45,724 bases of DNA, taken from the NCBI GenBank assembly GCA_030430675.1, contig JAUIKU010000010.1:1-45724 (forward strand), written 5' to 3'. Source of the stretch: Bacteroidia bacterium. GTDB taxonomy: Bacteria; Bacteroidota; Bacteroidia; Cytophagales; Cyclobacteriaceae. Shown one piece after another: positions 16,312-45,456 of this stretch (position 1 is the stretch's first letter; every line of letters starts with the position of its first letter). The notes beneath the pieces were generated by a model that searched no databases, was not told the origin of the DNA, and worked only from the letters and a program-made list of their open reading frames with translations. The translations under genes were made by a program, and so were the position numbers.

Positions 16312-18003
16312 ATGAAAACATCAAATTGCTTAGCTCGGGGATCAATGATTTGGATGGTAACTACCATACTGGTAAGCGCTTTATTGTGGTCATCCTGTCA
16401 GCGGCAGCAAGTTGAAGAATCATCCAATGTCATGGAGTCAGATGTAGTGATATACGGCGGTACTTCTGCTGCAGTAACTGCCGCGGTGCAGGTAGTCAAA
16501 ATGGGAAAGTCCGTGATTATGGTATCACCAGACAACCATCTTGGTGGTCTGACTTCAGGTGGATTGGGTTTTACCGATACCGGTAAAAAGGAGGCTATCG
16601 GGGGGCTGGCCAGGGAGTTTTATCACCGGGTATGGCGGCATTACCAGGATGACACGGCCTGGAAGTGGCAGCAACGGTCGGAGTATGGCAACAAGGGACA
16701 AGGTACGGCTGCCATTGATGGAGACAAACGGACCCAGTGGATCTTTGAACCTGGTGTGGCAGAACAAATCTTCGAAGATTTCATCGCCGAGAATAACATA
16801 ACTGTGTACCGGGATGAGTGGTTGGACCGCGAATCCGGGGTAGTAGTAGAAAATGGAAATATCCAATCCATTACCACCTTAAGTGGCAGGACTTTCAACG
16901 CCAGAGTATTTATAGATGCCACTTATGAAGGTGACCTGATGGCGGCTGCAGGTGTTTCATACCATGTGGGAAGGGAAGCCAACGAAGTATACGGTGAAAC
17001 CTGGAATGGCATCCAGGTGGGTACGTTACACCACAAGCATTGGTTTATGAGTGACATTTCACCCTATAAAAACCCAGGTGATCCCTCCAGTGGCGTATTG
17101 CCCCTGATTTCTAATGAGGATCCCGGGATTAAGGGTCAGGGCGACAAACGGATACAGGCCTATTGCTTCAGGTTGTGTATGACCAATCATGCTGATAACC
17201 GCAAACCGTTTCCCAGGCCGGTAAATTATGATTCTGCCCGGTATGAACTGTTGGCCAGGGTATTTGCCACCGGCAGGCGTGATCACTTTGAAAAATTCGA
17301 TCCCATACCCAATAGAAAAACCGACACCAATAATCACGGCCCGGTAAGCAGCGACTATATAGGAATGAACTACGATTATCCGGAAGCAAGTTACCAGCGC
17401 AGAGCAGAAATTATTGAAGACCACAAAAACTATCAGCAGGGGTTACTGTATTTTATCTGCAATGATCCCAGTGTTCCGGCAGACATACAAACTGCTTATC
17501 GGGAATGGGGGTTGGCTAAGGATGAATTTGTAGACAATGATAACTGGCCGCATCAGTTGTATATAAGGGAAGCCCGGCGCCTGATTGGCGAATATGTGAC
17601 CACCGAGCACGATATTACCAGTGCTTACGATACTCCGGAGTCGGTTGGAATGGGATCGTATGCCATGGATTCTCACAACGTTCAGCGATATATTAAGTCG
17701 GATGGATATGTGCAAAACGAAGGAGACATTGGCACTAAAGTGGAAAAACCGTATAGAATATCCTACGGTTCGCTTACACCCAAGAAAGAAGAATGCGAAA
17801 ACCTGCTGGTACCGGTTTGCGTTTCTTCCAGCCACATTGCCTTTGGGTCAATCAGAATGGAGCCGGTCTTTATGATACTGGGACAAAGTGCCGCCACTGC
17901 TGCTGTTTTAGCGATCGATGAAAATATTGCATTACAAGATTTATCCTATAAAAAGCTTAGATCCAGGTTGCTGGAAGATCAGCAGGTACTGGAGTTGCAA
18001 TAA
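16312..18003 (+). CDS. Secreted FAD-dependent oxidoreductase (FAD_oxidored, PF12831-type)
   Basis: This 563-residue protein has an N-terminal hydrophobic signal ending near Cys29 (WSSC), an imperfect lipobox. The FAD-binding beta-alpha-beta unit DVVIYGGTSAAVTAAVQ starts at about 44, followed by NHLGGLTSGGLGFTD, FEPGVAEQIF, FIDATYEGDLMAAAG and a C-terminal LVPVCVSSSHIAFGSIRMEPVFMILGQSAATAA block. That order is the FAD_oxidored family often annotated as xanthan-lyase-associated or glucose-inhibited-division-A-like. The reaction is undefined; export of a flavoprotein suggests periplasmic sugar or alcohol oxidation. It lies 70 bases after the lyase and 46 before the TIM-barrel protein, in the same direction. 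Confidence 0.84.
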   Translation: MKTSNCLARGSMIWMVTTILVSALLWSSCQRQQVEESSNVMESDVVIYGGTSAAVTAAVQVVKMGKSVIMVSPDNHLGGLTSGGLGFTDTGKKEAIGGLAREFYHRVWRHYQDDTAWKWQQRSEYGNKGQGTAAIDGDKRTQWIFEPGVAEQIFEDFIAENNITVYRDEWLDRESGVVVENGNIQSITTLSGRTFNARVFIDATYEGDLMAAAGVSYHVGREANEVYGETWNGIQVGTLHHKHWFMSDISPYKNPGDPSSGVLPLISNEDPGIKGQGDKRIQAYCFRLCMTNHADNRKPFPRPVNYDSARYELLARVFATGRRDHFEKFDPIPNRKTDTNNHGPVSSDYIGMNYDYPEASYQRRAEIIEDHKNYQQGLLYFICNDPSVPADIQTAYREWGLAKDEFVDNDNWPHQLYIREARRLIGEYVTTEHDITSAYDTPESVGMGSYAMDSHNVQRYIKSDGYVQNEGDIGTKVEKPYRISYGSLTPKKEECENLLVPVCVSSSHIAFGSIRMEPVFMILGQSAATAAVLAIDENIALQDLSYKKLRSRLLEDQQVLELQ

Positions 18004-32000: not shown

Positions 32001-32032
32001 AAGATTGCCGCCCCTGTCGGGACGACAATCTT
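32001..32032. terminator. Bidirectional-looking terminator between cytochrome c and the M19 operon
   Basis: AAGATTGCCGCCCC (32001-32014) and GGGACGACAATCTT (32019-32032) form a 14-pair stem; in minus-strand RNA the two non-Watson-Crick positions become G-U pairs, and the stem is followed there by a T-rich tract (complement of 31985-32000). It best ends the minus-strand operon, and may also stop the plus-strand cytochrome transcript. Confidence 0.75.
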
Positions 32033-32075: not shown

Positions 32076-33197
32076 CTACTGGTTGCCCCAGGTAGTGGTT
32101 AACAAACGGAGCCAATTCTTGCTGCATACATTGGTGATATCATTTTCGGAATATCCTCTGGCAGCGAGTAATGATGGAAATTTTTGGATATCTGCTATGG
32201 TATTCATGTCATAAGGGGTTTGTTCCAAACCAAACAAGCCATCGAGGTCACTGCCAAATCCGATATGGTGGCTGTTTCCGGCAATCTGGCAGATATGGTC
32301 GAAATGATCTATTAGTTTTTCCAGGTCGATCCCCAGATCTTTGGGGTTGTCTTGATTCATACGGAACCCGGGGTGCAACATCCAGGTATCCAGTGCACCC
32401 CCGATGACTCCACCTCTTTCGATTATTTTGCGAATCTGGTCGTCGTTAAACTGCCTTTCTCCAGGCACCAGGCTTCGGCAATTCTGGTGACTTGCCAGTA
32501 CCTGTCCCTGAAAGACGTCCAGGGCCTGGTAAAAGCCGTCGTCGGTAAGGTGAGTTAAGTCCAGCAGCATGTCTGTTTGATTCATTTCTTTTAACAGGGC
32601 CTTGCCCAGGGCAGTAAGCCCTTCACCATTGGAATGGGTTCCCGCTGCATATCTTCCAGGACCATAATGCGAAAGCCCTATTGATCTTAAACCTTGTTCA
32701 TAGTACTTGTGGAGGTAGTCCAGGTCAACAATGGAGTCAGCTCCTTCCAATGCCAGAATGTAACCAACCGGCAGCTTTGAATCAGGCGCCTGTTGCCAGC
32801 GTTGAAGGTGTTGATTAAGACCTTCCACTGAATTGATTTGTATCATTTCCCCCATTTGCTCCATAGCCTGATACCAGGCAAGCTGGGCCTGGCCGTTGGC
32901 ATAAGCTTGTGCTGGTGAAAACCAGCCCGGTAAACTCATGGTTGCAATTGATCCGCCACGCTGATCGACCCGAGAAATGATAGTGGCAAAAACCAGGGCT
33001 ACGTTCCCTTCCCTTAACTCAGGAAGTGCGACTGTTCCTTTGCCCCGATCCTGGAAGTCGTCCAGGGCTAATGCCAGCTCTCTTTGCCGGATGGTTTCCA
33101 CCGGCATGGTGAGATCCCGGTTTAAGGTCATGGCATTGGTAGCCAGATCCAAATGTGCATCTACCATCAGGAAATTATTACTCATCATCTTTTCCAT
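32076..33197 (-). CDS. Membrane-dipeptidase-like peptidase (M19, renal dipeptidase family)
   Basis: This 373-residue TIM-barrel metallopeptidase opens VDAHLDLATN (His15-x-Asp17 metal ligands), then GLSHYGPGRYAAGTHSNGEGLTALGKALLKEMN, LLDLTHLTDDGFYQAL, LASHQNCRSL and IGFGSDLDGLFG, the expected order of zinc ligands and substrate-binding blocks. The family hydrolyses dipeptides, often with a D- or dehydro-residue at the C-terminal side, and some beta-lactams. There is no signal peptide, so it acts in the cytoplasm. Starts at Met4 or Met5 are possible; the longest frame overlaps the preceding gene by 20 bases. It is the last gene of a five-gene operon. Confidence 0.87.
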   Translation of the reverse strand: MEKMMSNNFLMVDAHLDLATNAMTLNRDLTMPVETIRQRELALALDDFQDRGKGTVALPELREGNVALVFATIISRVDQRGGSIATMSLPGWFSPAQAYANGQAQLAWYQAMEQMGEMIQINSVEGLNQHLQRWQQAPDSKLPVGYILALEGADSIVDLDYLHKYYEQGLRSIGLSHYGPGRYAAGTHSNGEGLTALGKALLKEMNQTDMLLDLTHLTDDGFYQALDVFQGQVLASHQNCRSLVPGERQFNDDQIRKIIERGGVIGGALDTWMLHPGFRMNQDNPKDLGIDLEKLIDHFDHICQIAGNSHHIGFGSDLDGLFGLEQTPYDMNTIADIQKFPSLLAARGYSENDITNVCSKNWLRLLTTTWGNQ

Positions 33198-34194
33198 TGT
33201 GGTTTATCCGCTGCGAAGACACCCTGTTGGCAGAATCCCTTTTATCATTGGCATATTTGGCCGAGAGCCGGCTGATATCGAATGAAAATTTTTCAAAAGC
33301 CTCCTCCCATTGCTTTGCTTCCTCCGGGGTATAGTCATAAAACCCCTTCCCGTTGAAAATGCCGTTTCCTCCTTTAGTAGCAATATCATCGATCAGTTTG
33401 GGCACGTAAGTTTGGTTGCTCAGGGTAGGGAAGAGGTCCTTCATTACCTTGTGATAAGCCTGCAGGCCTGTCAGATCCATGTAACGGAAAAGTCCGCAGA
33501 ATGTCATCCAGTGCCCGGCGTCATTTTTGCAGGCCCGGTCCACATCTTCGATAGTGGCATATCCGTTTTCAACCAGATAAAAAGCCTCCCTGTACATGGC
33601 ATACATGATCCTGTTGGTGATAAAACCGCGTATATCTTTTCTGACCAGGGTGGGTTCTTTTCCCCAGCGACAAGCAATTCGAGATAGCTCTTCTCCCATT
33701 TTCACGTCACTGAATTCTCCACAAACGATCTCTAAAAATTTGGTAGTGTAAGCAGGTTCCGCCCAGTGCATACCGAAAAACCTATGGGGGAGCTTTACCA
33801 AAGTTTGCAATTGACTGATAGGAATGGCAGAGGTATTGGAAGTAATGATTACCCGGTCATTCACTTCCCGCTCGATTTTGCGATACACCATCTTTTTTAT
33901 GTCAACCTCTTCAATGACACATTCCATTACCAAATGACAATCTCCCAGATCGTGGTAGTCTTCGGTTACCGTGAAGTTTTTCAGTAATTCAGCAGGTAGT
34001 TTTTCTGTAAATTGCTGGTGATGGGACTCTGCCAATGACTTCTCGATGCGAGCGGGACCTTCAAGGTCAAGTTTGGATCTGGTAGGTATTAGCGCGACTA
34101 CATTTTGTTCGTTCAAAAGCAGAGCGGTAGCTATGCTACTTCCCATGTGACCCAGGCCTACTACACCTATTGTAAGATTATTTTCCTCTTCCAT
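33178..34194 (-). CDS. 3-Hydroxyacyl-CoA-dehydrogenase-like NAD-dependent dehydrogenase
   Basis: This 338-residue dehydrogenase has an N-terminal Rossmann fold (GVVGLGHMGSSIATAL at 10-25) and the helical 3HCDH C-terminal domain (GFITNRIMYAMYREAFYLVENGYATIEDVDRAC). The usual catalytic block HFFNPxPxMxLVE appears as RFFGMHWAEPAYTTKFLEIV, so the His and surroundings differ from fatty-acid enzymes and resemble the beta-hydroxyacid members of the superfamily such as lambda-crystallin/L-gulonate 3-dehydrogenase or carnitine dehydrogenase. It is therefore unlikely to be a plain beta-oxidation enzyme. Both ends overlap neighbouring genes, indicating one transcript with an MFS transporter and M19 dipeptidase. 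Confidence 0.83.
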   Translation of the reverse strand: MEEENNLTIGVVGLGHMGSSIATALLLNEQNVVALIPTRSKLDLEGPARIEKSLAESHHQQFTEKLPAELLKNFTVTEDYHDLGDCHLVMECVIEEVDIKKMVYRKIEREVNDRVIITSNTSAIPISQLQTLVKLPHRFFGMHWAEPAYTTKFLEIVCGEFSDVKMGEELSRIACRWGKEPTLVRKDIRGFITNRIMYAMYREAFYLVENGYATIEDVDRACKNDAGHWMTFCGLFRYMDLTGLQAYHKVMKDLFPTLSNQTYVPKLIDDIATKGGNGIFNGKGFYDYTPEEAKQWEEAFEKFSFDISRLSAKYANDKRDSANRVSSQRINHNGKDDE

Positions 34195-35470
34195 ATATGA
34201 TTGATTTACCTGGTGTGCGATTCCAGCTAACTAACTTGTAACCAAAGCTGCTGTAGATCAATATAACTGAATACAGCAGCAGCAGTAGCATCATGCCGGC
34301 ATTGCCACCAAACTGCATGTTAATCTGTGCATACACCGGGGGTAAAACAGCACCCCCGGCTATCGCCATAATTAGCATGGCTGAAGCGGTTTTAGTGTGT
34401 GCCCCCAAACCTTTGAGAGCCAATGGCCATATACAGGGCCAGTTCAATGAGTTGCAAAATCCCATAAAAATAAGAAAGGTCACAGAAATCAGTCCGGTGG
34501 TGGCCAACGCCCCAATGGTAAACAATATTCCCAGGGATGAGCAGACTACCAGTGCCCGGTTTTGACTAATGTATTTCGGGATGAATAATGTACCGCAGAG
34601 ATAGCCTGCCAGCATCGAATAGATGATATAGTGTACAAAAGGTTGAGATTCCAGGGTGGTGAATCCCATGCTAACTCCGTAGGGTATGATGTAATAGCTG
34701 GTAATGGCTTCGGTGCCTTCTGCACAAAATAGTGCTGTCGCTCCCAGTATTAGATTTGGGAAACTCCATACACTGGTGCGGTTCGACCCGGTAGTATCTT
34801 TGTTGTCTGTTTCTTCATTGACCTCAGGTAATTTTACAAACCAAATAAGCAGTGTAATTATTACCAATGCCAATGCAATCCACAAGTAGGGTTCAACCAC
34901 CCGCAATGCCAGTCCATCCAGCGTGGCGATTTTCTCTTCGGGAGACATGGTTTTTAAACTGCGCGAAATGCTGTCGACATTTAACAACAATATGGGCCCC
35001 AGTATGCTTTGACTGAGAATACCTGCCAGCTTATTGGATATTCCCATAATACTGTTTCTGCTTCCGGCGGACTCATTGGGACCCAAAATGGTAATGTAGG
35101 GATTGGCAGCAGTTTGTAAAATAGCCTGCCCGGAACCCAAAATAAACAGTCCCAGCAGGAATATTGAATAGGTGCGGTAGTAGGCCGCGGGTATAAAAGT
35201 CAATGCACCAATTACCATGGTAACCAAACCCAGCACCATGCCCAGCCGGAACCCCGTTTTTCGCAGTATAACGGAGGAGGGTAGTGCCATTACCACATAG
35301 GCGGCAAAAAAAGCGAAGGTTACCAGGGTGGTACGAACCTCATTGAGTTCCAGGGTGACCTGGAAATAGGGTATCAGTATACTGTTTAACCAGGCAGCAA
35401 ACCCGAAGACGCCAAAAAGCAGGGCGATCATCAGGATTGGAACGATATTTTGTCTGCCGGATGTGGTCAT
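34178..35470 (-). CDS. FucP-type MFS transporter (amine/sugar catabolic operon)
   Basis: The protein is 430 residues from the ATG at 35470. A longer upstream start exists in frame but lies inside the aminotransferase gene; the shorter start overlaps the aminotransferase stop as ATGA, the usual coupled arrangement. About 12 helices with FHS-subfamily blocks are present: LGSGQAILQTAANPYITILGP, SRNSIMGISNKLAGILSQ, and FCNSLNWPCIWPLALKGLG plus AGGAVLPPVYAQI. The subfamily is a proton symporter for hexoses and deoxy or amino sugars. Placement with an aminotransferase and RidA suggests an amino-containing cargo, which is inference. Confidence 0.87.
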   Translation of the reverse strand: MTTSGRQNIVPILMIALLFGVFGFAAWLNSILIPYFQVTLELNEVRTTLVTFAFFAAYVVMALPSSVILRKTGFRLGMVLGLVTMVIGALTFIPAAYYRTYSIFLLGLFILGSGQAILQTAANPYITILGPNESAGSRNSIMGISNKLAGILSQSILGPILLLNVDSISRSLKTMSPEEKIATLDGLALRVVEPYLWIALALVIITLLIWFVKLPEVNEETDNKDTTGSNRTSVWSFPNLILGATALFCAEGTEAITSYYIIPYGVSMGFTTLESQPFVHYIIYSMLAGYLCGTLFIPKYISQNRALVVCSSLGILFTIGALATTGLISVTFLIFMGFCNSLNWPCIWPLALKGLGAHTKTASAMLIMAIAGGAVLPPVYAQINMQFGGNAGMMLLLLLYSVILIYSSFGYKLVSWNRTPGKSIIYGRGK

Positions 35471-36813
35471 GGTTCCATTTCTTCCAATACCTTCCTGGCA
35501 TTGTGGAGTGCAATTTCTATATGCTCCCCGGTATGCACTGCAGAAATATACCAAAGGCCTCGTCCGATAATTCTGATACCTCTTTCGTGCATTCGGGCAA
35601 TGAACTCTGCCAGTTTTTTCTTATCGTAGGTGCTGGCATCCCTGAAATCATTCACTGTAGCTGCGTCGGTGAATCCCGTGTGGAACATGGGCCCTAGTCC
35701 CTGCACCAGCAAGTTGTGCCCGGTTTCACTAGCTGCTTCTCGTAACCCCTTCATTAGCTGCTGGCCCAACTCAAAGATTCGTTTATGGGTTTCCGGTTGT
35801 TCCAGAATTTCGATGGTTGCCAGGGCAGCCGCAATTAGCGGACATGCGGAATTCATGGTTCCGGCATGGATGACCCGGCCGTCGGCCAGTAGTTCCATCC
35901 AGGGCTTTTTGCCAACCAGCGCTGATATGGGGTACCCACTGGCTATAGCCTTGGCGAAAATGGAAAGATCGGGAACCACATCGAACATTTTCTGGGCACC
36001 GCCCAGGTTCGTTCTGAACCCGGTAATAACTTCATCAAATATCAGGGTGACCCCATATCGGGTACACAGTTCCCGCAACCCTTCCAGGTATCCTTCCCTG
36101 GGAAGCACACAACTACTATTGCACATAATGGGTTCGGTAATAATAGCTGCAATCTCCTGATGATGTTCGGCAAGAGTTTTCTCAACCAACTCCAGATTGT
36201 TCCACGGCAACAGGTAAAACTCATCTTTTACTTCGGGTGGTAACCCCTGGGTCCAGGGTATGCTGACAGGGTCTTCAAGCGGCCCCATGGCCTGAGGATC
36301 CAGGGTCAACCCCCAGCTTACATTGTCCAGCCAACCGTGATAGTGCCCTTCAAATCTGATAAACTTTGGTTTACCGGTTTTAGCGCGGGCAGTTCGTAAA
36401 GCGGTATGTATTGCGGTAGATCCGTCCAGACAAAACCGGATCAATTCCGCTGAAGGAATGTACTGTTGCAGCTTTTCAGCCAGGCTAATTTCCAATTCAT
36501 GCTGTCCGGCAAATAACTGCCCAAGATTTGAGTAGGTGTTAACTTTTTCTAATACACTTGGATTGGAATGACCGGCTATCAGGGGACCCTGACTTAGGGA
36601 AAAGTCCAGATACCTGTTCCCATCTACGTCATAGACATAGACTCCCCGTCCGTGAGTGTAAAATAACGGGTGAGGGTAGCTGTACTTCCGGAACTCAGAG
36701 GATACCCCTCCGGCCAGACAGTTCTTGGCCCGCTCAAATAATGCGGCGGATTTCTGGTAAGATAGTGGCGTGTTTTTAGAATTCACGGTCAAATTGTCAT
36801 ACTGTGGAACCAC
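35467..36813 (-). CDS. Class III aminotransferase (glutamate-1-semialdehyde aminomutase-like)
   Basis: This 448-residue PLP enzyme shows VYDVDGNRYLDFSLSQGPLIAGH at the start of the fold, FCLDGSTAIHTALRTARAKTGK, EPIMCNSSCVLPREGYLEGLRELC, LIFDEVITGFRT and FAKAIASGYPISALVG, where the lysine (about 288) binds PLP. The pattern is nearest to glutamate-1-semialdehyde aminomutase-like transaminases. A heme-pathway role is unlikely because it sits in a catabolic operon with RidA and MFS genes and no porphyrin genes. It probably moves an amino group from a beta- or omega-amino acid or amino sugar to an alpha-keto acid. Its stop overlaps the MFS start and RidA is six bases upstream. Confidence 0.88.
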   Translation of the reverse strand: MVPQYDNLTVNSKNTPLSYQKSAALFERAKNCLAGGVSSEFRKYSYPHPLFYTHGRGVYVYDVDGNRYLDFSLSQGPLIAGHSNPSVLEKVNTYSNLGQLFAGQHELEISLAEKLQQYIPSAELIRFCLDGSTAIHTALRTARAKTGKPKFIRFEGHYHGWLDNVSWGLTLDPQAMGPLEDPVSIPWTQGLPPEVKDEFYLLPWNNLELVEKTLAEHHQEIAAIITEPIMCNSSCVLPREGYLEGLRELCTRYGVTLIFDEVITGFRTNLGGAQKMFDVVPDLSIFAKAIASGYPISALVGKKPWMELLADGRVIHAGTMNSACPLIAAALATIEILEQPETHKRIFELGQQLMKGLREAASETGHNLLVQGLGPMFHTGFTDAATVNDFRDASTYDKKKLAEFIARMHERGIRIIGRGLWYISAVHTGEHIEIALHNARKVLEEMEP

Positions 36814-36819
36814 TTAACT

Positions 36820-37215
36820 TTAACCGGAATAGTTGACAATAGCGTCAATTTCCACCTTTATACCTTCTGCCAGGGTGGATTGGACAGTGGTTCTGGCCGG
36901 TTTAATTTCACCGAAATAGCTGGCGTAAACCTGGTTAAATCGATCGAAATCATTAATGTTTGCCAGGTGTACCGTACACTTGACCACGTTGTCCATGGTA
37001 CAGCCTGCCTGCTCTACAATGGCCTTAACATTATCTAAAGTGCGGCGTGTTTCTTCTTCGATAGTTCCCAGTACAAACTGGGAGCTGGTGAAATCCACCG
37101 AGGCCTGCCCGCTGACGAACAGAAATCCACCGGATATCAGCCCATCCGAATAAGCTCCGGTAACAAAGTCTGACTTCCGGTCCGGGTGAATTATTGGTTT
37201 GTTGCTATTTCCCAT
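36820..37215 (-). CDS. ridA: RidA/YjgF-family enamine/imine deaminase
   Basis: This 131-residue protein has the chorismate-mutase-like RidA fold: GLISGGFLFVSGQASVD, TRRTLDNVKAIVEQAGCTMDNVVKCTVHLANINDFDRFNQVYASYF, and PARTTVQ with the conserved Arg followed by VEIDAIV. RidA proteins hydrolyse reactive enamines and imines made by PLP enzymes, releasing ammonia. It is the first gene of the operon and directly precedes a PLP aminotransferase, a functional pairing well known for the family. It is divergent from an AraC gene across a 314-base region with repeats and a -7 box. Confidence 0.92.
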   Translation of the reverse strand: MGNSNKPIIHPDRKSDFVTGAYSDGLISGGFLFVSGQASVDFTSSQFVLGTIEEETRRTLDNVKAIVEQAGCTMDNVVKCTVHLANINDFDRFNQVYASYFGEIKPARTTVQSTLAEGIKVEIDAIVNYSG

Positions 37216-37402: not shown

Positions 37403-37529
37403 ATACCTACCCTGTCACTAATGAAAAAGATTAAATTTCTAATACGTTTCTTCGGAGTTTGCCTGAAATTGTTGACTTACAGGGTTATTTTCAGAATATT
37501 AGTATCAGGTAATTCCAAATTTTCAAAAG

Positions 37530-38390
37530 ATGAAAGCTTCAGTTGTACGTTTATTTAAAGATCCTGACACTTCCTTCATCTTTCATCGAGAGACGGAGGA
37601 TTTTGACCAATACCATCATCACCCTGAGTACGAGTTGGTTTTGATCAAAAAAGGAAGGGGGATACGCATTGTAGGTGATTCTATTGATGAGTTTAAAGAA
37701 AATGACCTGGTATTTCTGGGAGCGCAGCTACCACATGTGTGGAGGTGCAACGACGAATACTTTCTTGATGATGGAACCTTCCTGGGAGAAGGTCTGGTAA
37801 TTCAGTTTACCGAAGATTTTCTGGGAACGAAGTTCTTTGATATGCCGGAGAATGTGGGACTGAGCAAGTTCATAGATCAGTCAGCCCAGGGTTGCCGACT
37901 CTATGGAAATACCAAGAAAGAAATCGTCCGGTTGATGACAGAAATGTGCAACATGACTTCCTCACAACGTCTTTATGCTTTGTTTGCCATTTTTGAACTT
38001 TTGGGTAACACCACAAGTTTTGAACAAGTCAGCAGTCAGGCCTTCCTGGAGCCCTATAAAACGCATAACAATGAACCCCTGAGGGCAGTAATTCAATATA
38101 CATTACAGAACTTCAAGAACGACATAAAGTTGAAAGATGTACTGGAGATAGCCAATATGTCAAACACCCAGTTCTTTGTAACTTTTAAGAGTACCTATAA
38201 GATGTCGTTCAAAAATTATCTATCTAAAATCCGTATAGGGTGTGCCTGCCGGTTACTTACCGAGGAGAATTTCAACATAAGTCAGGCGGCCTATGAATCC
38301 GGCTTTGAGAACATTTCCAATTTCAACCGGCATTTCAAACAGATCAAGGGAGTAACGCCCAGTGAGTACCTGAGAGCGGTAAAGGTTTAG
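37530..38390 (+). CDS. AraC-family transcriptional regulator
   Basis: This 286-residue regulator has an N-terminal cupin sensor with HHHPEYELVLIKKGRGIRIVGD and NDLVFLGAQLPHVW (about 25-75), and two C-terminal helix-turn-helix units (about 190-283; LKDVLEIANMSNTQFFVTFKSTYKMSFKNY and SQAAYESGFENISNFNRHFKQIKGVTPSEYL). It is divergent from the ridA operon and directly precedes the ceramidase-like gene, so both are likely targets. The His-rich cupin entrance resembles regulators sensing sugars or amino sugars, but the ligand is unknown. Confidence 0.92.
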   Translation: MKASVVRLFKDPDTSFIFHRETEDFDQYHHHPEYELVLIKKGRGIRIVGDSIDEFKENDLVFLGAQLPHVWRCNDEYFLDDGTFLGEGLVIQFTEDFLGTKFFDMPENVGLSKFIDQSAQGCRLYGNTKKEIVRLMTEMCNMTSSQRLYALFAIFELLGNTTSFEQVSSQAFLEPYKTHNNEPLRAVIQYTLQNFKNDIKLKDVLEIANMSNTQFFVTFKSTYKMSFKNYLSKIRIGCACRLLTEENFNISQAAYESGFENISNFNRHFKQIKGVTPSEYLRAVKV

Positions 38391-38436
38391 CTTGGTTAAA
38401 TATGACAAGCCGGAGAATAAGATTATTGATGAAAAT

Positions 38437-39813
38437 ATGATGGCTCGTAAAATTTTCTTTCTTTTTATATGCACCACGGCGTGGTTACAAGTTTTTAGTC
38501 AAAATGACCAGGTACTTCAGGTGCTTGAGGCGGGTATAGGAGTGGTTGATGTTACCGGAAAGGACGCGGTAATTCTCGATCCTCTAAATGTAAAGGCCGT
38601 TGTATTCAGGCAGGGAACAGAACAAGTAGCGCTGGTGGCCTGCGATGTAACCAATATATCCAGCGATATACTGGACCGTGCACGTTATAATGCCTCTAAG
38701 GCAACCGGAATACCCTATCGCAATATAAGTGTTTCGGCTACGCATACCCATATGGACAATGCCTTAGGGGATTTGGGATCAGCCATTGTGTCTGCTGTAA
38801 AAACAGCCCAGAAGAATCTGAAAGTAGTTAACCTGTATTCAGCCGTAGGACAGGAATTTACTGTGGCACACAATAGAAGGTATTTCATGAAAGACGGCTC
38901 GGTAAAGTTTAATCCTATGTTTTTGAATCCGAATATCGTTAGACCGGCGGGGCCTATTGATCCGGATGTTGGATTTGTATTATTTAAAGATCAGGCTTCC
39001 GGGAAGCCTGTGGCATCACTTTCTAATTACGCATTGCATCTTGACATTGTAAAGGAATATGGTGCTGTTTATCAAAAGGAAGGCGCCGGGTCACCCAATG
39101 CGGTCAGTGCCGATTATCCATATTGGTTAGAGACAGCGCTTCGTGAGGATTTCGGAGACACGTTCAATTCGATATTTTTTACCGGATGTTGCGGCAATAT
39201 AAATCATTGGGACTTTTCAAAGCCAGGGCCGCAAAGTGGACATAAAACCAAATCCAAGCAGGTGGGAGATTCCTTGTATCAGGCCATAAAAAGGGTGCTT
39301 CCCACGGCAGATCAGGAAGACCCCAATCTTGCCATACTCACAAGGGTAGTGACCGCGCCATTACATCCATATACACAGGATGACTTAGACTGGGCACGTG
39401 GAGTGGAATCCACACAGTTGTCTTCAAAAAGTGAAGAACCTGATGAAAGAAAGCAATTTCTTGATAAGGTTATGAGATCAAGAATCCTGTGGCTTGAAGA
39501 CCAAAAGCAAAAAGGAAATACATCCATTCCCTTGGACGTACAAGCGATCCGGTTAAGTGAAAATACTGCTATTGTTACACTACCGGGTGAGATGTTCGTA
39601 GAACATGGAATTACCATTAAGAATTTTTCTCCTTTTAAGAATACCATAATAGTGGAGCTCTCAAACAATAACGAAATTTCCTATGTGCCTACAAAAAGTG
39701 CCTTTAAACAAGGAGGGTATGAAGTAGTAAATTCCAGACTGGCACCAGGAGGAGGCGAAATGTTGGTTCAGGCGGCCATAGAGTTATTGCAGGAGCTTCG
39801 TCAAGTGCATTGA
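38437..39813 (+). CDS. Secreted neutral/alkaline ceramidase-like amidase
   Basis: This 458-residue protein counts from the ATG at 38437; an upstream in-frame TTG at 38392 adds only polar residues and no signal. The signal peptide (MMARKIFFLFICTTAWLQVFS) ends near residue 22. The neutral-ceramidase N-terminal domain is visible: AGIGVVDVTG, VALVACDVTNIS, ISVSATHTHMDNALG near residue 100 (zinc-type His), HNRRYFMKDGSVKFNP, and SNYALHLDIV, followed by FFTGCCGNINHWDFSKP and IVTLPGEMFVEHG. Bacterial members cleave N-acyl amide bonds of lipids or other conjugates; many Bacteroidota copies have unknown substrates. It follows the AraC gene by about 46 bases. Confidence 0.84.
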   Translation: MMARKIFFLFICTTAWLQVFSQNDQVLQVLEAGIGVVDVTGKDAVILDPLNVKAVVFRQGTEQVALVACDVTNISSDILDRARYNASKATGIPYRNISVSATHTHMDNALGDLGSAIVSAVKTAQKNLKVVNLYSAVGQEFTVAHNRRYFMKDGSVKFNPMFLNPNIVRPAGPIDPDVGFVLFKDQASGKPVASLSNYALHLDIVKEYGAVYQKEGAGSPNAVSADYPYWLETALREDFGDTFNSIFFTGCCGNINHWDFSKPGPQSGHKTKSKQVGDSLYQAIKRVLPTADQEDPNLAILTRVVTAPLHPYTQDDLDWARGVESTQLSSKSEEPDERKQFLDKVMRSRILWLEDQKQKGNTSIPLDVQAIRLSENTAIVTLPGEMFVEHGITIKNFSPFKNTIIVELSNNNEISYVPTKSAFKQGGYEVVNSRLAPGGGEMLVQAAIELLQELRQVH

Positions 39814-39878: not shown

Positions 39879-40550
39879 ATGACGGTACCTAAAAAGGTAT
39901 ACCTGCTTAAGTCGAATGAAAGCTTTCCGAAACAGAAATCTTCGGACAGCTATGATTTTAATCAATTAGAGGATAAAGACATTTGGAGTTCATTTAAGTC
40001 CGGCAACGAGGACGCATTAATTTTCATTTACTCAAAATATGTACATGGACTATTCAACTTTGGTTGTCAATGTACCAGCAACCAGGAGTTGGTAAAGGAT
40101 TGCATTCAGGAGTTATTTATATCACTTCAGTTTAAAAAGGGGGTTAGGGCTGTACAAAATATCAAACCGTATCTTTTCAAATGTTTGCGTCGTGAAATTT
40201 TCCGGGCGCTAAAGAAGCAATCAAGATATTTTCTTAAGGCACAGGTTGACGAGTATGACATATTCCAGATCGAATTACAGTGGGATGAAAAAATGATAGA
40301 AGATCAACTATCAGAAGAGAGAAAAATCTTATTAAGGGAGGCCATCACCAAACTAACTTCCAAACAACGAGAGGCTATAATGTATTACTATTACGAAGGA
40401 TTTACTTATACAGAAATCGCAGACATTATGAATATGAGCTCAGTGGTAACAGCCAGGAAACTTATCTACAGGGCCATAGACTCCCTAAAATTGGCAATGA
40501 ACGAAAGTAGAGTTCAACTGCAATTCACTATCCACGGGGTTCTCCCTTAA
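39879..40550 (+). CDS. ECF RNA polymerase sigma factor
   Basis: This 223-residue sigma factor has region 2 at about 30-105 (EDALIFIYSKYVHGLFNFG, QELVKDCIQELFISL, IKPYLFKCLRREI) and region 4 at about 150-205 (LTSKQREAIMYYYYEGFTYTEIADIMNMSSVVTARKLIYRAIDSL). This is the Bacteroidota expansion of FecI-type factors that drive SusC/SusD genes. A 30-residue N-terminal extension precedes region 2. The FecR partner lies 176 bases downstream and the SusC receptor after that, giving the usual sigma/anti-sigma/receptor order. Confidence 0.93.
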   Translation: MTVPKKVYLLKSNESFPKQKSSDSYDFNQLEDKDIWSSFKSGNEDALIFIYSKYVHGLFNFGCQCTSNQELVKDCIQELFISLQFKKGVRAVQNIKPYLFKCLRREIFRALKKQSRYFLKAQVDEYDIFQIELQWDEKMIEDQLSEERKILLREAITKLTSKQREAIMYYYYEGFTYTEIADIMNMSSVVTARKLIYRAIDSLKLAMNESRVQLQFTIHGVLP

Positions 40551-40726: not shown

Positions 40727-41761
40727 ATGGAATACAAACAATACAAAACCAGTGATTTTATAAAAGATGAGTTTTTTGTCCGATGGGTAACCAGGGGTGA
40801 TAAAGGATCAGATCATTTCTGGAAAAAGTGGTTGAAGAATCATCCGGAGAAAAGTGCTGAAGTGGCAGAAGCCCAAAGAATAATCAGGTCATTCAGATAT
40901 AAAACAAATCACGTGATAAAGGAAGAGTCTTATACGGAGTTACTTGAAGGGATTTTGCGGGAAAGGATCAAAAAAGACCATGCTACGGAGATCAACAGTC
41001 GATCACGGAAGAAGTTTCAATGGGTAGCCATTGCGGCTTCTGTGGCAATTCTATTGGTAACCTTTTACTACCAGATGCCTGTGATAGAGGAAACCGAACA
41101 ACCCGATAGATCTTTGGTGGTAAAGGAAACAGCAAAAGGTCAGAAGTCAACCATAAAGCTTAGTGATGGCACCAACGTTGAGTTGAATTATGATTCAAAA
41201 ATTTACTTTACCGAAGGTTTTTCTGACAGTACCCGCATTGTCTATCTGGAGGGAGAAGCATTTTTCGATGTGTCAAGAGATGAACAGCGGCCATTTACAG
41301 TAAGAAGTAATGATATTTCAACTACAGCCTTAGGTACTTCATTTAATATAAATAGTAACAGAGTTACCCGGCAGGTTAAAGTAGCGCTGTTGACCGGAAA
41401 AGTAAGGGTAGAGGACTCTGCCGGTCGTGCTGTTATCTTAGAGCCCAATGAACTGGCTCATTATACTGACGGAAGAATAAGTAAAGAGAAGTTTGAATAT
41501 AATAACGAGGTTGCCTGGAAAGATGGCAAATTATACTTCGACCAGAATAGATTGGAAGATGTTTTTGAAAAGCTGGAGAACTGGTATGGGGTAGAGTTTG
41601 ACGCACAAACGGAGATGCAGGGCATATACACCGGAGAATTCAGTAATAATCCTCCATTAAGTCAGGTGCTGAATGGTATTGCTTTTGCCACAGGATTAAG
41701 CTTTGAGAAAAAGCAGCATACGATAATCATTAAAAACAAAGACCATGAAAAATCCAGATAA
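40727..41761 (+). CDS. FecR-family anti-sigma factor
   Basis: This 344-residue inner-membrane regulator has a cytoplasmic N-terminal anti-sigma region (about 1-95), one membrane helix at about 97-117, a FecR domain (about 138-235; KGQKSTIKLSDGTNVELNYDSKIYF, LEGEAFFDV, ALGTSFNIN) and a C-terminal DUF4974/STN-binding-type domain (about 270-335; FDQNRLEDVFEKLENWYGVEF). It holds the upstream ECF factor inactive until the SusC N-terminal domain signals substrate. It lies between the sigma factor and SusC. Confidence 0.93.
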   Translation: MEYKQYKTSDFIKDEFFVRWVTRGDKGSDHFWKKWLKNHPEKSAEVAEAQRIIRSFRYKTNHVIKEESYTELLEGILRERIKKDHATEINSRSRKKFQWVAIAASVAILLVTFYYQMPVIEETEQPDRSLVVKETAKGQKSTIKLSDGTNVELNYDSKIYFTEGFSDSTRIVYLEGEAFFDVSRDEQRPFTVRSNDISTTALGTSFNINSNRVTRQVKVALLTGKVRVEDSAGRAVILEPNELAHYTDGRISKEKFEYNNEVAWKDGKLYFDQNRLEDVFEKLENWYGVEFDAQTEMQGIYTGEFSNNPPLSQVLNGIAFATGLSFEKKQHTIIIKNKDHEKSR

Positions 41762-41880: not shown

Positions 41881-44800
41881 ATGTATAATAAGTTTTTACG
41901 ACAAGTTTTACTTATGTCTAAATATGCCCTATATGGCATGTGCTTGCAGGTTTTATTTTTGAGTGTGCTGTCTGCAAAGAATAGCAATGCCCAAACAGAT
42001 AAACTGAAGGATATTATTGTCACGGTAAACTGGGAAAGTACAAAGCTCAAAAAAGCATTCTCTGATTTAAACCGGAAAACTGGATTCAGTTTTAACTATT
42101 ACGACAGTGAGATAGATGTAAACAGGCCGATATCATTGAATATAGAAAATGGTTCAATGCAAGCGGTACTACGTGGAATGTCAGAAATGGCCGGGTTAAA
42201 GTTCCGGCGTATTAACAGTAATATTCACGTGGGAGGTTTGAAAGACTCGGAAAATATTATCTCCGAGCAAATAACGGAACTGGCCAATGTTGAGATCTCA
42301 GGCAGAATCACTGACGAAAATAATGAGGGATTGCCAGGGGCTTCCGTTGTAGAGAAGGGAACCGTAAACGGGACCACCTCCGATTCCGAAGGAAACTACA
42401 GTATCACGGTTTCGGAAGGATCGATTCTGTCCATTTCTTTTATTGGATACAAGACTCAGGAGATTCCAATCGGTGCTCAAAATGTAATTAACGTACAGTT
42501 GGAGCTGGATGTATCCCAGTTGGATGAACTGGTGGTAGTGGGCTATGGAACCCAGGAAAAGGTCAATCTTACCGGTGCTGTGGATGTAATTCCCAACGAT
42601 GCGCTTCAAAATAGGATGACCTCTACCGTATCACAGTTACTGGTAGGCTCAGCATCTGCGGTAAGTTTTAATTACGACAGGAACGGTTACCAGCCAGGGT
42701 CGGAAGCCACATTGGAAATCAGGGGCACCGGCTCATTGAACGGCGGTGAGCCCTACGTGATTATCGATGGTTTTCCGGGAGATATGAACCGGCTAAACCC
42801 TGAAGATATTGAATCTATATCCATTTTAAAGGATGCTGCAGCATCAGCCATTTATGGTGCTCGTGCCCCTTATGGTGTGGTATTGATCACCACTAAGTCA
42901 GGCAAGAAGAAACAAAAATTAAGCGCCAGCTATTCGGGGAGTGTAAATGTGATCACTCCCGCCAGATTACCCGGTACACTTGATTCTTACACATTTGCCC
43001 GGGTGACCAATGAAGCGGCCCTCAACAAAACTTCTTCCTTGTATTATAACGAAGAAACCATTGAGCGTATCCTGGCTTACCAGGCCGGAGATTACGATTA
43101 CATAAGAAACCAAATACAAACGCAGTTCCCCGACTTTCCGGTTGAGGACATAACCAATTGGGAATCCATGCCCACCGCCGGAGGAGGCTGGGCAGGCCAG
43201 AATAGCGCCCATGCCAACTACGATCCATGGGATTATTTTACCGGAACCAATATCGGTACCTCTCAAAACCTGTCCATTAACGGTGGATCTGAGAAAACCT
43301 CCTATTATTTCTCGGTAGGATACCTGGACCAGCCGAGTTCATTGGAACTGGGAGACGACTATTTCAAGCGTTTCAATCTTACCGCGAAACTCAGTACCGA
43401 GATAACCGACTGGATGGATTTCAAATATGAAACCCGTTTTATGAAGAGTAAAAGACACCTGCCCAATGCTTCCAGACCGGAGACGCAGGACACGTACAAT
43501 GCGTTGTTCCATATCATTTTCAACTTTAACCCAACACACCCTTTTTATACCAGTTTTGGTGATGAAACCCAGGGTGGGAGACAGTTCTTCTGGGCTGGTT
43601 ATAACAACGATGAAAGAACAGAGAACTGGCAGATTGTGGGCACGGAGATTCGCCCATTGGAAGGTTGGAAGATCAATGCGGACTTTGCCTATCAGATGGT
43701 GGACAAGTACGATTTACACGATGGACAGGAGTTTACCACGGTCAACTGGCTGACTGGCCAGAATACCAGCTCCTGGTACCCCACTCAGGTAAATGAATAT
43801 CATTACAGCGATAACTACTGGAGTACCAACGTCTATTCTTCCTATGAAAAGAGTATCAATGATGACCATAACTTTTTGGTTATGGGTGGGATGCAGTTGG
43901 AAAGAGCCAATTTCCGGTCATTGGATGCCCAGGCGTTGCAGTTGATTGTACCAGATGTAATTTCACTGTCAACCACCACCGGTGAGCCTGTACTGCGTGA
44001 ATCATTGACCCATTGGGCTACGGAGGGGTATTTTGGAAGACTTACCTACAATTACAGGGGCAAATACCTGTTTGAATCCAACGTGCGCTATGACGGTACT
44101 TCCAGGTTTCAGGAAGGCAAACGCTGGGGATTCTTCCCGTCATTCTCTGCCGGATGGGTAGTGAGTAACGAGAATTTCTGGGAGTCTGTTGCCCCGGTGG
44201 TAAATACTTTAAAGATCAGGGGTTCCTGGGGAGAATTGGGTAATCAAAACGTAGCGGCCTACCAGGACCTTGCCTTGATACCTATTTCCAAAGCAAACTT
44301 AGGGTGGTTGCCCGGGTATACCCAAACCGGACAGGTAGGATACACTTTAACTCCTGGTTTGGTGAGCCCCGGTCTGACCTGGGAAACGGCCGCCACCACC
44401 AACCTGGGTTTGAATCTGGGTTTCCTGCAACATAAACTGGAGGTAGACTTCGATTGGTTTGAGCGGAACACTACCAATATGATCGGGCCTTCGGAAGCAT
44501 TGCCGGGGGTTTTGGGAGCTTCAGCTCCTCAGTCCAATAATGCTACCCTTAGGACCCGCGGTTGGGAACTGGCCGTGAGGTGGAAACAAACACTGGCCAA
44601 TGATCTGCACTATTTTGCTAGTGTGGGCTTGTACGATGCCAAATCGGTAGTAACAGAATACAACAACCCTACCGGATACCTGGGCAGCTGGCGGGTTGGG
44701 CAGGAAGTTGGTGAGATCTGGGGTTGGTCTTCTCAGGGGATGTTTAAATCTCAGGAAGAGATCGATAATCATGCTGACCAGTCGTATATCTACAATGAAT

Positions 44801-45456
44801 GGAACACCGGTGATCTGAAATACGATGATCTTAACGGAGATGGCGTGATCGACCGGGGAGAATATACCATAGACGATCATGGCGACCTGGTGTTGCTGGG
44901 CAGTACTTCTCCGCGTTTTCAGTTCGTGATCAACGCGGGATTGAGACATAAAGGTTTCGATTTCTCCATGATATGGAAAGGGACCATGAAGAGAGATAAG
45001 GCCATGCTGGATTATGAAGATTATGCCTTCTATGGATTCCGCAGGGCGGGGTGGTCACAACCGAAAGATGATCACCTTGATTATTACCGCGACCAGCCAG
45101 GTACCAAATACGTGGGCCTTTACGAAGGTGAGGCCAACATAAATACTGATGCCTATTACACCAGGCCCTATCTGGATTCAGGAGCCTCAGCCAAGAATTA
45201 CAATGCAAACTCATGGTTCCTGGGTGATTTCTCCTACATAAGGCTTCAAAATGTGCAATTGGGATACACCATCCCGGAAAGCTTGTTTTCCAAGGTTGGG
45301 ATCAGGGTATTCTTTTCAGGTGATAACCTGTTGACATTTGACAAACTGCCTAAAGGTATAGATCCCACTATGTTTGGAGGAGGGTACCGGGACAATCCTG
45401 GAAAAGATTACCGGGCCGACAGAATTTACTCATTTGGACTGAACCTGACCTACTAG
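41881..45456 (+). CDS. susC: SusC/RagA TonB-dependent receptor with STN signalling domain
   Basis: This 1191-residue outer-membrane transporter has a signal peptide (about 1-38), a secretin/TonB N-terminal (STN) domain at about 48-115, a carboxypeptidase-D-like barrel lid (138-215), the SusC plug signature DELVVVGYGTQEK at 215-227, and a beta-barrel with many Trp/Tyr-rich strands ending in aromatic Tyr. It imports a polymer or oligomer with its SusD partner using TonB energy, and the STN domain reports occupancy to FecR. The ligand cannot be told from sequence. A terminator-like hairpin and inverted repeat precede it; susD begins 15 bases after the stop. Confidence 0.95.
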   Translation: MYNKFLRQVLLMSKYALYGMCLQVLFLSVLSAKNSNAQTDKLKDIIVTVNWESTKLKKAFSDLNRKTGFSFNYYDSEIDVNRPISLNIENGSMQAVLRGMSEMAGLKFRRINSNIHVGGLKDSENIISEQITELANVEISGRITDENNEGLPGASVVEKGTVNGTTSDSEGNYSITVSEGSILSISFIGYKTQEIPIGAQNVINVQLELDVSQLDELVVVGYGTQEKVNLTGAVDVIPNDALQNRMTSTVSQLLVGSASAVSFNYDRNGYQPGSEATLEIRGTGSLNGGEPYVIIDGFPGDMNRLNPEDIESISILKDAAASAIYGARAPYGVVLITTKSGKKKQKLSASYSGSVNVITPARLPGTLDSYTFARVTNEAALNKTSSLYYNEETIERILAYQAGDYDYIRNQIQTQFPDFPVEDITNWESMPTAGGGWAGQNSAHANYDPWDYFTGTNIGTSQNLSINGGSEKTSYYFSVGYLDQPSSLELGDDYFKRFNLTAKLSTEITDWMDFKYETRFMKSKRHLPNASRPETQDTYNALFHIIFNFNPTHPFYTSFGDETQGGRQFFWAGYNNDERTENWQIVGTEIRPLEGWKINADFAYQMVDKYDLHDGQEFTTVNWLTGQNTSSWYPTQVNEYHYSDNYWSTNVYSSYEKSINDDHNFLVMGGMQLERANFRSLDAQALQLIVPDVISLSTTTGEPVLRESLTHWATEGYFGRLTYNYRGKYLFESNVRYDGTSRFQEGKRWGFFPSFSAGWVVSNENFWESVAPVVNTLKIRGSWGELGNQNVAAYQDLALIPISKANLGWLPGYTQTGQVGYTLTPGLVSPGLTWETAATTNLGLNLGFLQHKLEVDFDWFERNTTNMIGPSEALPGVLGASAPQSNNATLRTRGWELAVRWKQTLANDLHYFASVGLYDAKSVVTEYNNPTGYLGSWRVGQEVGEIWGWSSQGMFKSQEEIDNHADQSYIYNEWNTGDLKYDDLNGDGVIDRGEYTIDDHGDLVLLGSTSPRFQFVINAGLRHKGFDFSMIWKGTMKRDKAMLDYEDYAFYGFRRAGWSQPKDDHLDYYRDQPGTKYVGLYEGEANINTDAYYTRPYLDSGASAKNYNANSWFLGDFSYIRLQNVQLGYTIPESLFSKVGIRVFFSGDNLLTFDKLPKGIDPTMFGGGYRDNPGKDYRADRIYSFGLNLTY

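Follow-up and report, generated by a model that had tools for sequence, protein, structure and literature searches.

A five-gene operon of a Cyclobacteriaceae bacterium as a tentative, reduced version of a Bacteroidota regulon for amino-sugar acid catabolism

The stretch of DNA analysed here (hereafter the window) has a length of 45,724 nucleotides and represents one entire contig, JAUIKU010000010.1, of the Bacteroidia bacterium assembly GCA_030430675.1 (Cytophagales; Cyclobacteriaceae). Five co-directional genes stand head to tail on its minus strand, from position 37215 to 32076. They encode, in this order, a RidA-family imine/enamine deaminase, a class III pyridoxal phosphate (PLP) aminotransferase (AT3), a FucP/NagP-type sugar transporter of the major facilitator superfamily (MFS), a 3HCDH-like NAD-dependent dehydrogenase (HCDH), and a metal hydrolase of the Peptidase M19 family (M19). 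Our favoured but tentative interpretation is that these genes are the window's version of a Bacteroidota regulon, probably AraC-controlled, which would catabolise a glycan-derived N-acylated amino-sugar acid. The substrate would be an alpha-amino, beta-hydroxy or beta-amino polyol carboxylate carrying an amide, and the window operon would be a reduced form lacking a second PLP enzyme, here called c4. No account of this operon appeared among the papers listed in the literature searches.

Layout of the operon and its proteins

An earlier note on this DNA, made from the sequence alone, had described an operon of these five families, and the open reading frames (ORFs) bear this out: RidA (36820..37215, Pfam Ribonuc_L-PSP), AT3 (35467..36813, GTG start, Aminotran_3), MFS (34178..35470, MFS_1), HCDH (33178..34194, 3HCDH_N and 3HCDH), and M19 (32076..33197, Peptidase_M19), with every protein above the Pfam gathering scores. 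The close spacing pointed out in the note was also found: 6 bases separate RidA from AT3, and overlaps of 4 (ATGA, covering the AT3 stop), 17, and 20 bases join AT3 to MFS, MFS to HCDH, and HCDH to M19, respectively. A terminator-like hairpin with a 14-pair stem and a T-rich tail lies just past M19 (32001..32032, minus strand). A scan of the region gave 6 sites like it vs. 7.0 expected in shuffles, so the weight of this call rests on its position after M19. That the five genes form one transcription unit is supported, at the level of sequence, by the conserved gene order and the predicted AraC operator described below.

RidA exceeded the cut-off of TIGR00004 (112.4 vs. 106.25 bits). Its Arg108, which we take to be catalytic, Thr109, Thr110, and Glu122 were invariant in 26 of 26 aligned sequences, and Tyr22 in 25 of 26 (one contig counted twice).

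AT3 (Aminotran_3, 206.9 bits) belongs to the branch of glutamate-1-semialdehyde (GSA) aminomutases. Its scores stayed below the cut-offs of all NCBIfam models among the best 25 of 69, of which GntE ranked first, and the GSA aminomutase cut-offs were not reached (hemL, 345.8 of 527.3; NF000818, 351.8 of 398). Its closest solved relatives are GSA aminomutases, and D-phenylglycine aminotransferase is also among the solved relatives. The GGVSSxxR stretch is retained, and IGRGLWYIS stands in place of the aminomutase C-terminal FEAGF stretch. Substrates of GSA aminomutases are aminoketone/aminoaldehyde pairs, and this kinship favours a route in which a 2-amino sugar acid would be oxidised by HCDH at its beta-hydroxyl, CO2 would be lost from the resulting beta-keto acid to give an aminoketone, and AT3 would transaminate this 5-aminolevulinate-like compound, with c4 and RidA taking another stereoisomer. 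Such a route would also suit the related loci in which AT3 and HCDH occur without a nearby c4 (L040, L042, L044, L050 (a 6-kb contig), L069, and L075). We consider it quite unlikely, since AT3 is devoid of the FEAGF stretch and two parallel routes would be demanded in one operon.

The transporter exceeded the cut-off of the gluP subfamily model TIGR01272 (228.2 vs. 202.55 bits). Its best model was NagP, an N-acetylglucosamine transporter (291.3 bits, below the cut-off of 625), and the FucP equivalog cut-off was not reached either. The sole PDB match was the L-fucose symporter; Ser and Gln occupy the sites of the Asp and Glu which we take to be proton-coupling in FucP.

HCDH possesses the Rossmann and C-terminal domains and the catalytic residues of the 3-hydroxyacyl-CoA dehydrogenase superfamily. 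Ser122, His143, Glu155, and Asn194, presumably catalytic, were invariant in 25 aligned sequences (the window and 24 of the 31 loci of the scan described below). From the catalytic His, HCDH reads HWAEP and 3-hydroxybutyryl-CoA dehydrogenase reads HFFNP, so the active-site block that the note had called unusual is indeed so. None of the 19 NCBIfam models listed was reached, those of 3-hydroxybutyryl-CoA dehydrogenase, 5-formyl-3-hydroxy-2-methylpyridine-4-carboxylate 5-dehydrogenase, and carnitine dehydrogenase included. The nearest solved sequence is PDB 4om8, a dehydrogenase of a CoA-free carboxylate; by fold, 3-hydroxybutyryl-CoA dehydrogenases outrank it. By inference, HCDH would be CoA-independent, and the acidic residue of HWAEP could hold an ammonium group.

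M19 scored 185.6 bits with Peptidase_M19 (threshold 26) and had no NCBIfam match. His15, Asp17, Glu151, His216, His237, Asp317, Arg248, and Gln249 were invariant in 41 of 41 sequences (one contig counted twice); we assume that the metal ligands are among these residues. We propose from this sequence evidence that M19 is an amide hydrolase for an amino-acid-like substrate.

Conservation of the gene set

Scanning for HCDH with one genome per species yielded 42 candidates and 31 confirmed loci, in which neighbours were counted within 10 kb or to the contig end. According to their titles, these loci belong to Flavobacteriaceae, Saprospiraceae, Cytophagales, Chitinophagales, and other Bacteroidota, with one from Verrucomicrobiota. 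M19 was found near HCDH in 26 loci, RidA in 18, AT3 in 16, c4 in 15, AraC in 13, and MFS in 6; two ceramidase-like families occurred in 11 and 9 of the 31 loci. AraC was divergent in 10 of the 13 linked loci and placed after M19 in L042, L044, and L046. Spacing was tight: of 25 cases, 12 showed an overlap of HCDH and M19, which measured 4 to 26 bases (first start codon taken). The order RidA-AT3-MFS-HCDH-M19, with insertions only, was found elsewhere in L045 (c4 after RidA) and in L120 (a ceramidase-like gene after RidA and an aldolase of the dihydrodipicolinate synthase (DHDPS) family before it). The note had named a gene order conserved nowhere as grounds for its refutation; this was not what was found, and the 31 loci in other genomes, 26 with M19 and 16 with AT3 near HCDH, speak against chance assembly.

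AT3 orthologues (E <= 1e-100) are rare: of 295 genomes sampled from the class 3 had one, as did 5 of 98 relatives, which makes 7 distinct genomes. HCDH adjoins AT3, or is separated from it only by MFS, in 6 of these 7; the exception is genome G038 (L121). M19 relatives occurred at 15 places in 14 of the 295 genomes; 13 of these places were inspected, and HCDH or a c4-like gene adjoins M19 in at least 11. Pairwise distances correlated with those of HCDH for M19 (rho 0.85), AT3 (0.83), c4 (0.80), and AraC (0.88), and among HCDH, M19, AT3, and c4 rho was 0.79–0.91. One best copy per locus was used and species relatedness was left uncorrected, so that shared ancestry contributes to these values; correlated distances of this kind fit joint inheritance of the genes.

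Several variants of the set were observed. A sibling genome (metagenome-assembled genome DHS20C17; L031:8338-10979), placed by automatic grouping in the same genus as the window's genome, has RidA-HCDH-M19, with just 118 bp in place of AT3 and MFS. We do not claim a remnant of either gene in this gap, the best score being 24.3 bits vs. a shuffle maximum of 26.3. The HCDH-M19 pair stands alone, without RidA, AT3, or c4 nearby, in L055-L057, L059, and L060 (Chitinophagaceae and relatives), and all of these except L059 have a fatty-acid-desaturase-cluster gene near the pair. In L069:8904-12225 and L075:7553-10871, AT3 lies between two HCDH copies. The second copy no longer has the catalytic His (GLNW for GxHW) or the usual SNTS stretch, and the sequences suggest an active/inactive dehydrogenase pair. 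L069 also holds an apparent fusion (16793-18001), truncated at the end of the locus, in which a weakly lactonase-like part is joined to the beginning of a GSA-aminomutase-like aminotransferase. In a plasmid collection, the best identity of versions outside Bacteroidota among the matches listed was 34% for HCDH and 42% for AT3; the region of a Neorhizobium plasmid match represents a histidine-degradation context, and a Microvirga record is unannotated at its match.

A predicted AraC operator and regulon

The gene for the AraC-family regulator (37530..38390, plus strand; HTH_18 and HTH_AraC) is divergent from the operon. A motif search for an 18-base motif was performed on 13 of 14 AraC-to-operon intervals, L053 being omitted as a near-copy of L032. 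The information content of the motif was 15.1 (best of 12 starts), compared to 11.9–12.8 in six shuffled sets (best of 4 each). Among the 10 nearer intervals, 9, that of the window included, contain a direct repeat, GTATYAKA-N14-YAYTA, whose half-sites are offset by exactly 21 bp; L050 fails. Other spacings from 15 to 29 never occurred in more than 2 intervals, and 500 shuffles gave an average of 0.012. This geometry test covered 10 of the 13 intervals (L069, L075, and L119, whose AraC proteins are 41–45% identical, were left out), and the pattern was chosen after the sites were seen. In 8 of the 9 intervals with the repeat, a TAnnTTTG box, which we take to be the Bacteroidota -7 element, starts exactly 21 bp past it; the window has no such box. 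The box of L036 at +21 was read by eye, the script having reported an earlier match.

The repeat of the window (37419..37445, minus strand) was the only match there, vs. 0.02 expected. In 1.16 Mb of loci longer than 5.5 kb, some of which overlap and many of which are operon loci, each repeat match precedes RidA, except those in L037 (before a separate MFS gene) and in L044 (before a ceramidase-like/MOSC/MFS unit). These two sites and that of L045, before RidA, had not been used in defining the pattern. Of 15 whole genomes, 6 contained the composite of repeat and box, with 7 matches in total compared to 1 for the reversed pattern, and all 7 are at these same places (RidA, L037, and L044 sites; coordinates compared by hand). 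The short repeat was rejected as a genome-wide predictor, with 29 matches vs. 32 for the reversed control in five genomes. Because the short pattern is at chance level, the window site rests on its position and conservation. Judging from these patterns, the direct repeat is probably an AraC-type operator. Its occurrence before the MFS gene and before the ceramidase-MOSC-MFS unit suggests one regulon, which probably extends to the ceramidase-like amidases and the MOSC protein.

In six loci (L032:3638-5861, L042, L044, L048, L049, and L053), a ceramidase-like gene is directly followed by a gene for a MOSC_N/MOSC-type protein with mARC/YcbX-like domain order. By eye, the ceramidase-like protein of L032 had no obvious signal peptide, and in L044 the pair lies behind an operator-type site. 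This pairing could mean that the substrate has an N-O bond, reduced before amide hydrolysis.

The role of RidA and the PLP enzyme c4

In L032 (7511-8617), c4 has the domains Ala_racemase_N and D-ser_dehydrat, and its PDB matches were sequences of D-threonine aldolase, 3-hydroxyaspartate aldolase, and D-serine dehydratase. In 14 of the 15 loci which have c4, it stands directly after RidA, and a His-x-Cys metal site was present in 27 of 27 copies checked. The chicken dehydratase is reported to bind its metal via His and Cys and D-threonine aldolase via His and Asp, and His/Cys is also noted in a predicted aldolase/racemase (PMC4401734). The metal arrangement of c4 thus looks to be of the dehydratase type rather than the aldolase type, which, in view of that aldolase/racemase, is no proof. 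Enzymes of the D-serine dehydratase type release an enamine, an obvious job for RidA, and with c4 in about half of the related loci RidA is explained better by c4 than by the aminotransferase. The pairing of RidA with the transaminase proposed in the note is incomplete in this respect. A c4-type enzyme also needs a beta-hydroxyl, so the dehydrogenase may act earlier, on another isomer, or reductively; the note's sequence of deamination and then oxidation is supported as catabolism of an amino compound but is not established in its order of steps. A distant D-serine-dehydratase-like gene, apparently split over two contig ends, was seen in the window's genome (G000; L064/L065, contigs C366 and C313), with an aldehyde dehydrogenase gene beside one of the two pieces.

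The same enzymes could scavenge peptides containing D-amino acids. M19 would then cleave L-X-D-Ser/D-Thr-type dipeptides, c4 and RidA would deaminate D-Ser and D-Thr, AT3 would transaminate other D-amino acids, and HCDH would handle a hydroxy acid by-product. Known M19 dipeptidases cleave L-X-D-type dipeptides, the catalytic residues of M19 are intact, c4 is of the D-serine dehydratase type, and D-phenylglycine aminotransferase is among the solved relatives of AT3. A separate Rid/c4-like/M19 module also exists, with a GntP-family transporter in Parabacteroides distasonis and none nearby in Hymenobacter, and L122, L125, and L126 each combine GntP with a small gene, a c4-like gene, and M19. We nevertheless regard peptide scavenging as rather doubtful: the transporter is of sugar type, the operons of the relatives are surrounded by ceramidase-like amidases, sulfatases, GH20/GH27/GH110-type genes, and SusCD, and HCDH, which defines the cluster, has no clear role in the scheme.

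Neighbouring genes and glycan-utilisation context

On the plus strand, the AraC gene is followed by a gene (38392..39813) without a Pfam match up to E 0.05 or an NCBIfam match, whose product has a signal-peptide-like N-terminus by eye. The gap is 1 base from a TTG start and about 46–49 bases from ATG starts, and the gene is possibly co-transcribed with AraC. Its AlphaFold model (pLDDT 82.7) matched the neutral ceramidase of P. aeruginosa, 2zws (E 4.8e-24, TM 0.65 by query length, 14% identity). The modelled product thus has the neutral ceramidase fold; we describe it as a predicted amidase. Degradation of a sphingoid or sulfonolipid base, with the ceramidase-fold protein freeing a long-chain amino alcohol for AT3 and HCDH, would agree with this fold and with hydroxy-amine chemistry. 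Such a function is highly improbable, given the weak sequence relation to ceramidase (no Pfam match for the window gene, and 26.5 of 1200 bits for its relative in L032), the sugar-type MFS and enzymes for polar hydroxy-amino acids, and an operon that includes neither an acyl-CoA ligase nor a thiolase.

Further downstream, there are genes for an extracytoplasmic function (ECF)-type sigma factor (39879..40550; Sigma70_r4_2), a FecR-type anti-sigma factor (40727..41761; FecR and FecR_C), and a SusC-type TonB-dependent receptor (41881..45456; Plug, TonB barrel, and CarbopepD_reg_2), all on the plus strand. A SusD-like lipoprotein ORF, recognised by reading of the sequence, apparently starts at ~45473, and the end of the contig truncates it.

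Glycan-related genes also neighbour the operons of the relatives: GH20, GFO/IDH, sulfatase, amino acid permease, and phosphotriesterase-family genes in L043; sulfatases in L032; GH27-type and GH31 genes in L044 and L045, respectively; GH110-type beta-barrel domains beside L120; and SusD with a FAD oxidoreductase in L037. The alternative of biosynthesis or modification, in which the genes would build an amino-modified sugar acid instead of degrading one, is improbable. GSA-like aminotransferases are also biosynthetic, and GntE gave the best NCBIfam model for AT3; however, with an importer-type MFS, SusC/D, several amide hydrolases, glycoside hydrolases, and sulfatases nearby, the indications are of uptake and hydrolysis, and neither a ligase nor a glycosyltransferase is among the operon genes.

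A second context of HCDH was found in L071, which comprises creatininase, RidA, HCDH, an enolase-superfamily protein, a DHDPS-family aldolase, and GH20. L074 shares this arrangement as far as gene lengths show, and its RidA, HCDH, and aldolase genes were confirmed. The aldolase of L120 is 73% identical to that of L071 and has a 70% homologue in the window's genome. There, a GntR-like gene (by eye) and this DHDPS-family aldolase gene lie at the end of contig C247 (L142:244-1846); they are 60% and 68–70% identical, respectively, to the L071/L074 and L120 genes, and an atypical motif occupies, by eye, the position expected for a GTTGE-like stretch. In L032:14514-18030, LanB- and LanC-like lanthipeptide genes directly follow the operon; relatives of both were clustered in L036 and L053 as well.

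Proposed pathway

In the favoured interpretation, SusC/SusD would import an oligomer, the ceramidase-fold amidase would remove an acyl group outside the cytoplasm, and MFS would import the monomer. M19 would cleave the remaining amide, with a D-amino-acid-like sugar acid as the leaving group. For AT3 and HCDH, the simplest site of action would be the carbon beta to the carboxylate, where beta-hydroxy, beta-keto, and beta-amino forms would be interconverted. The alpha-amino group would be lost as an enamine/imine and hydrolysed by RidA. This imine would be made by c4 in the loci which have it; for the same step, the window's genome would need a distant c4 homologue encoded elsewhere. The resulting 2-keto-3-deoxy acid would be cleaved by the DHDPS-family aldolase. 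Catabolism of an amino-sugar conjugate, as suggested in the note, is thus favoured by the NagP-like transporter and the glycan neighbours of the relatives (GH20, sulfatases, GH27, GH110-type, and SusCD).

An unlikely alternative is that 2,3-diamino sugar acids, or others substituted at C3, are degraded by a new non-phosphorylating pathway under one AraC regulon. The ceramidase-fold and M19 hydrolases would remove two amides, the beta-amino group would leave via AT3, HCDH would produce a hydroxyl at the beta-carbon, and the alpha-amino group would be removed by the dehydratase together with RidA, again giving a 2-keto-3-deoxy acid for the DHDPS-type aldolase.

Several points weigh against the favoured interpretation of an amino-sugar acid regulon. 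The window operon has no c4, and no c4 orthologue was found in the window's genome, where only two partial pieces of 38–40% identity were detected. AT3 is dispensable: it is absent in L031 and L049, both of which keep RidA, HCDH, and M19, and decayed in L038, where a remnant between c4 and HCDH (1535-1792, blastx E 2e-18) indicates that it was lost while the other genes stayed open. Since AT3 is inconstant, the group of the substrate on which it acts may vary, or it may deal with a variant substrate. RidA distances correlated less with those of HCDH, M19, AT3, and c4 (rho 0.51–0.69; 0.51 with HCDH and M19), and those of AraC and the secreted ceramidase-like family had a rho of 0.37 in 7 loci. 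The operator repeat is absent in the three distant intervals L069, L075, and L119 and in L050, which leaves 9 of 13; no composite of repeat and box was present in 9 of the 15 genomes, among them that of the window, where the short pattern is also unspecific (5 hits vs. 6 control). The carbohydrate-active enzymes vary by locus, so that no single polysaccharide is implied. A kinase for 2-keto-3-deoxygluconate (KDG) was not evident in the scanned neighbourhoods, in a scan not aimed at this enzyme. Oxidation of a hydroxy acid by HCDH is not assured, since its nearest characterised relative is named for aldehyde oxidation.

To our knowledge, many Bacteroidota glycan loci have unexplained amino-sugar end products. 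The gene set and its predicted operator link families handling amides and amines, and the substrate could be found with a few compounds on a culturable strain. One culturable carrier is Kriegella aquimaris DSM 19886, whose locus L047 reads RidA-c4-AT3-HCDH-M19 and possesses the operator repeat. Finding the substrate would assign functions to three families with names that are misleading here (membrane dipeptidase, ceramidase, and glutamate-1-semialdehyde aminomutase).

Comparison with known systems

AT3 shares the class III branch with GSA aminomutases and GntE, and the GGVSSxxR, DEVxTGFR, and Lys-bearing stretches align. It differs from them by scores below the cut-offs and by its C-terminal active-site stretch, and its operon context is neither haem synthesis nor guanitoxin. 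HCDH and 4om8 (5-formyl-3-hydroxy-2-methylpyridine-4-carboxylate 5-dehydrogenase) have a GMHW stretch in common, and the substrate of 4om8, whose reaction we take to be part of vitamin B6 degradation, is CoA-free. However, 4om8 has HWSNP where HCDH has HWAEP, and HCDH reached 175 of 500 bits at the NCBIfam equivalog.

On plasmids of Parabacteroides distasonis and Hymenobacter, genes annotated, by family names only, as RidA family, D-threonine aldolase (D-TA) family, and membrane dipeptidase are adjacent in that order. This module has neither AT3 nor HCDH and is accompanied by a GntP-family transporter in P. distasonis; its D-TA enzymes are 42–44% identical to c4. The small gene of L122 encodes a Rid-family protein nearer another Rid subgroup (PF14588).

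The ong cluster of Pseudoalteromonas provides the closest parallel in function. This marine bacterium is reported to utilise chitin oxidatively via 2-acetamido-2-deoxygluconate (GlcNAc1A), 2-amino-2-deoxygluconate (GlcN1A), KDG, and KDG-6-phosphate (KDG-6-P), with a deacetylase, a PLP deaminase, and a kinase turning GlcNAc1A into KDG-6-P; deletion of the deacetylase, deaminase, kinase, or RidA gene each abolished growth on GlcNAc1A, and the role of RidA was left open (PMC9537276). The window resembles ong in having RidA, an amide hydrolase, and a TonB-dependent receptor, and its relatives carry a PLP enzyme of the D-amino-acid-deaminase type, with GH20 also in L043. The amide hydrolase of the window is M19 or ceramidase-like and not of the D-aminoacylase type of OngB; no OngB-type deacetylase is among the operon genes, to which the comparison was confined, the rest of the genome not being searched for OngB. 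The fold-type III PLP deaminase of the OngC type, compared by family and not by sequence, does not occur in the window operon. Unlike ong, the window has AT3 and HCDH in addition, MFS replaces the SSS importer, and AraC takes the place of the MurR/RpiR-type repressor. Enzymes of known kinds are combined here, and, as the note had it, no named pathway covers the combination. The gene set would work in a manner similar to ong, by amide removal and alpha-deamination with RidA, yet it is no member of that system.

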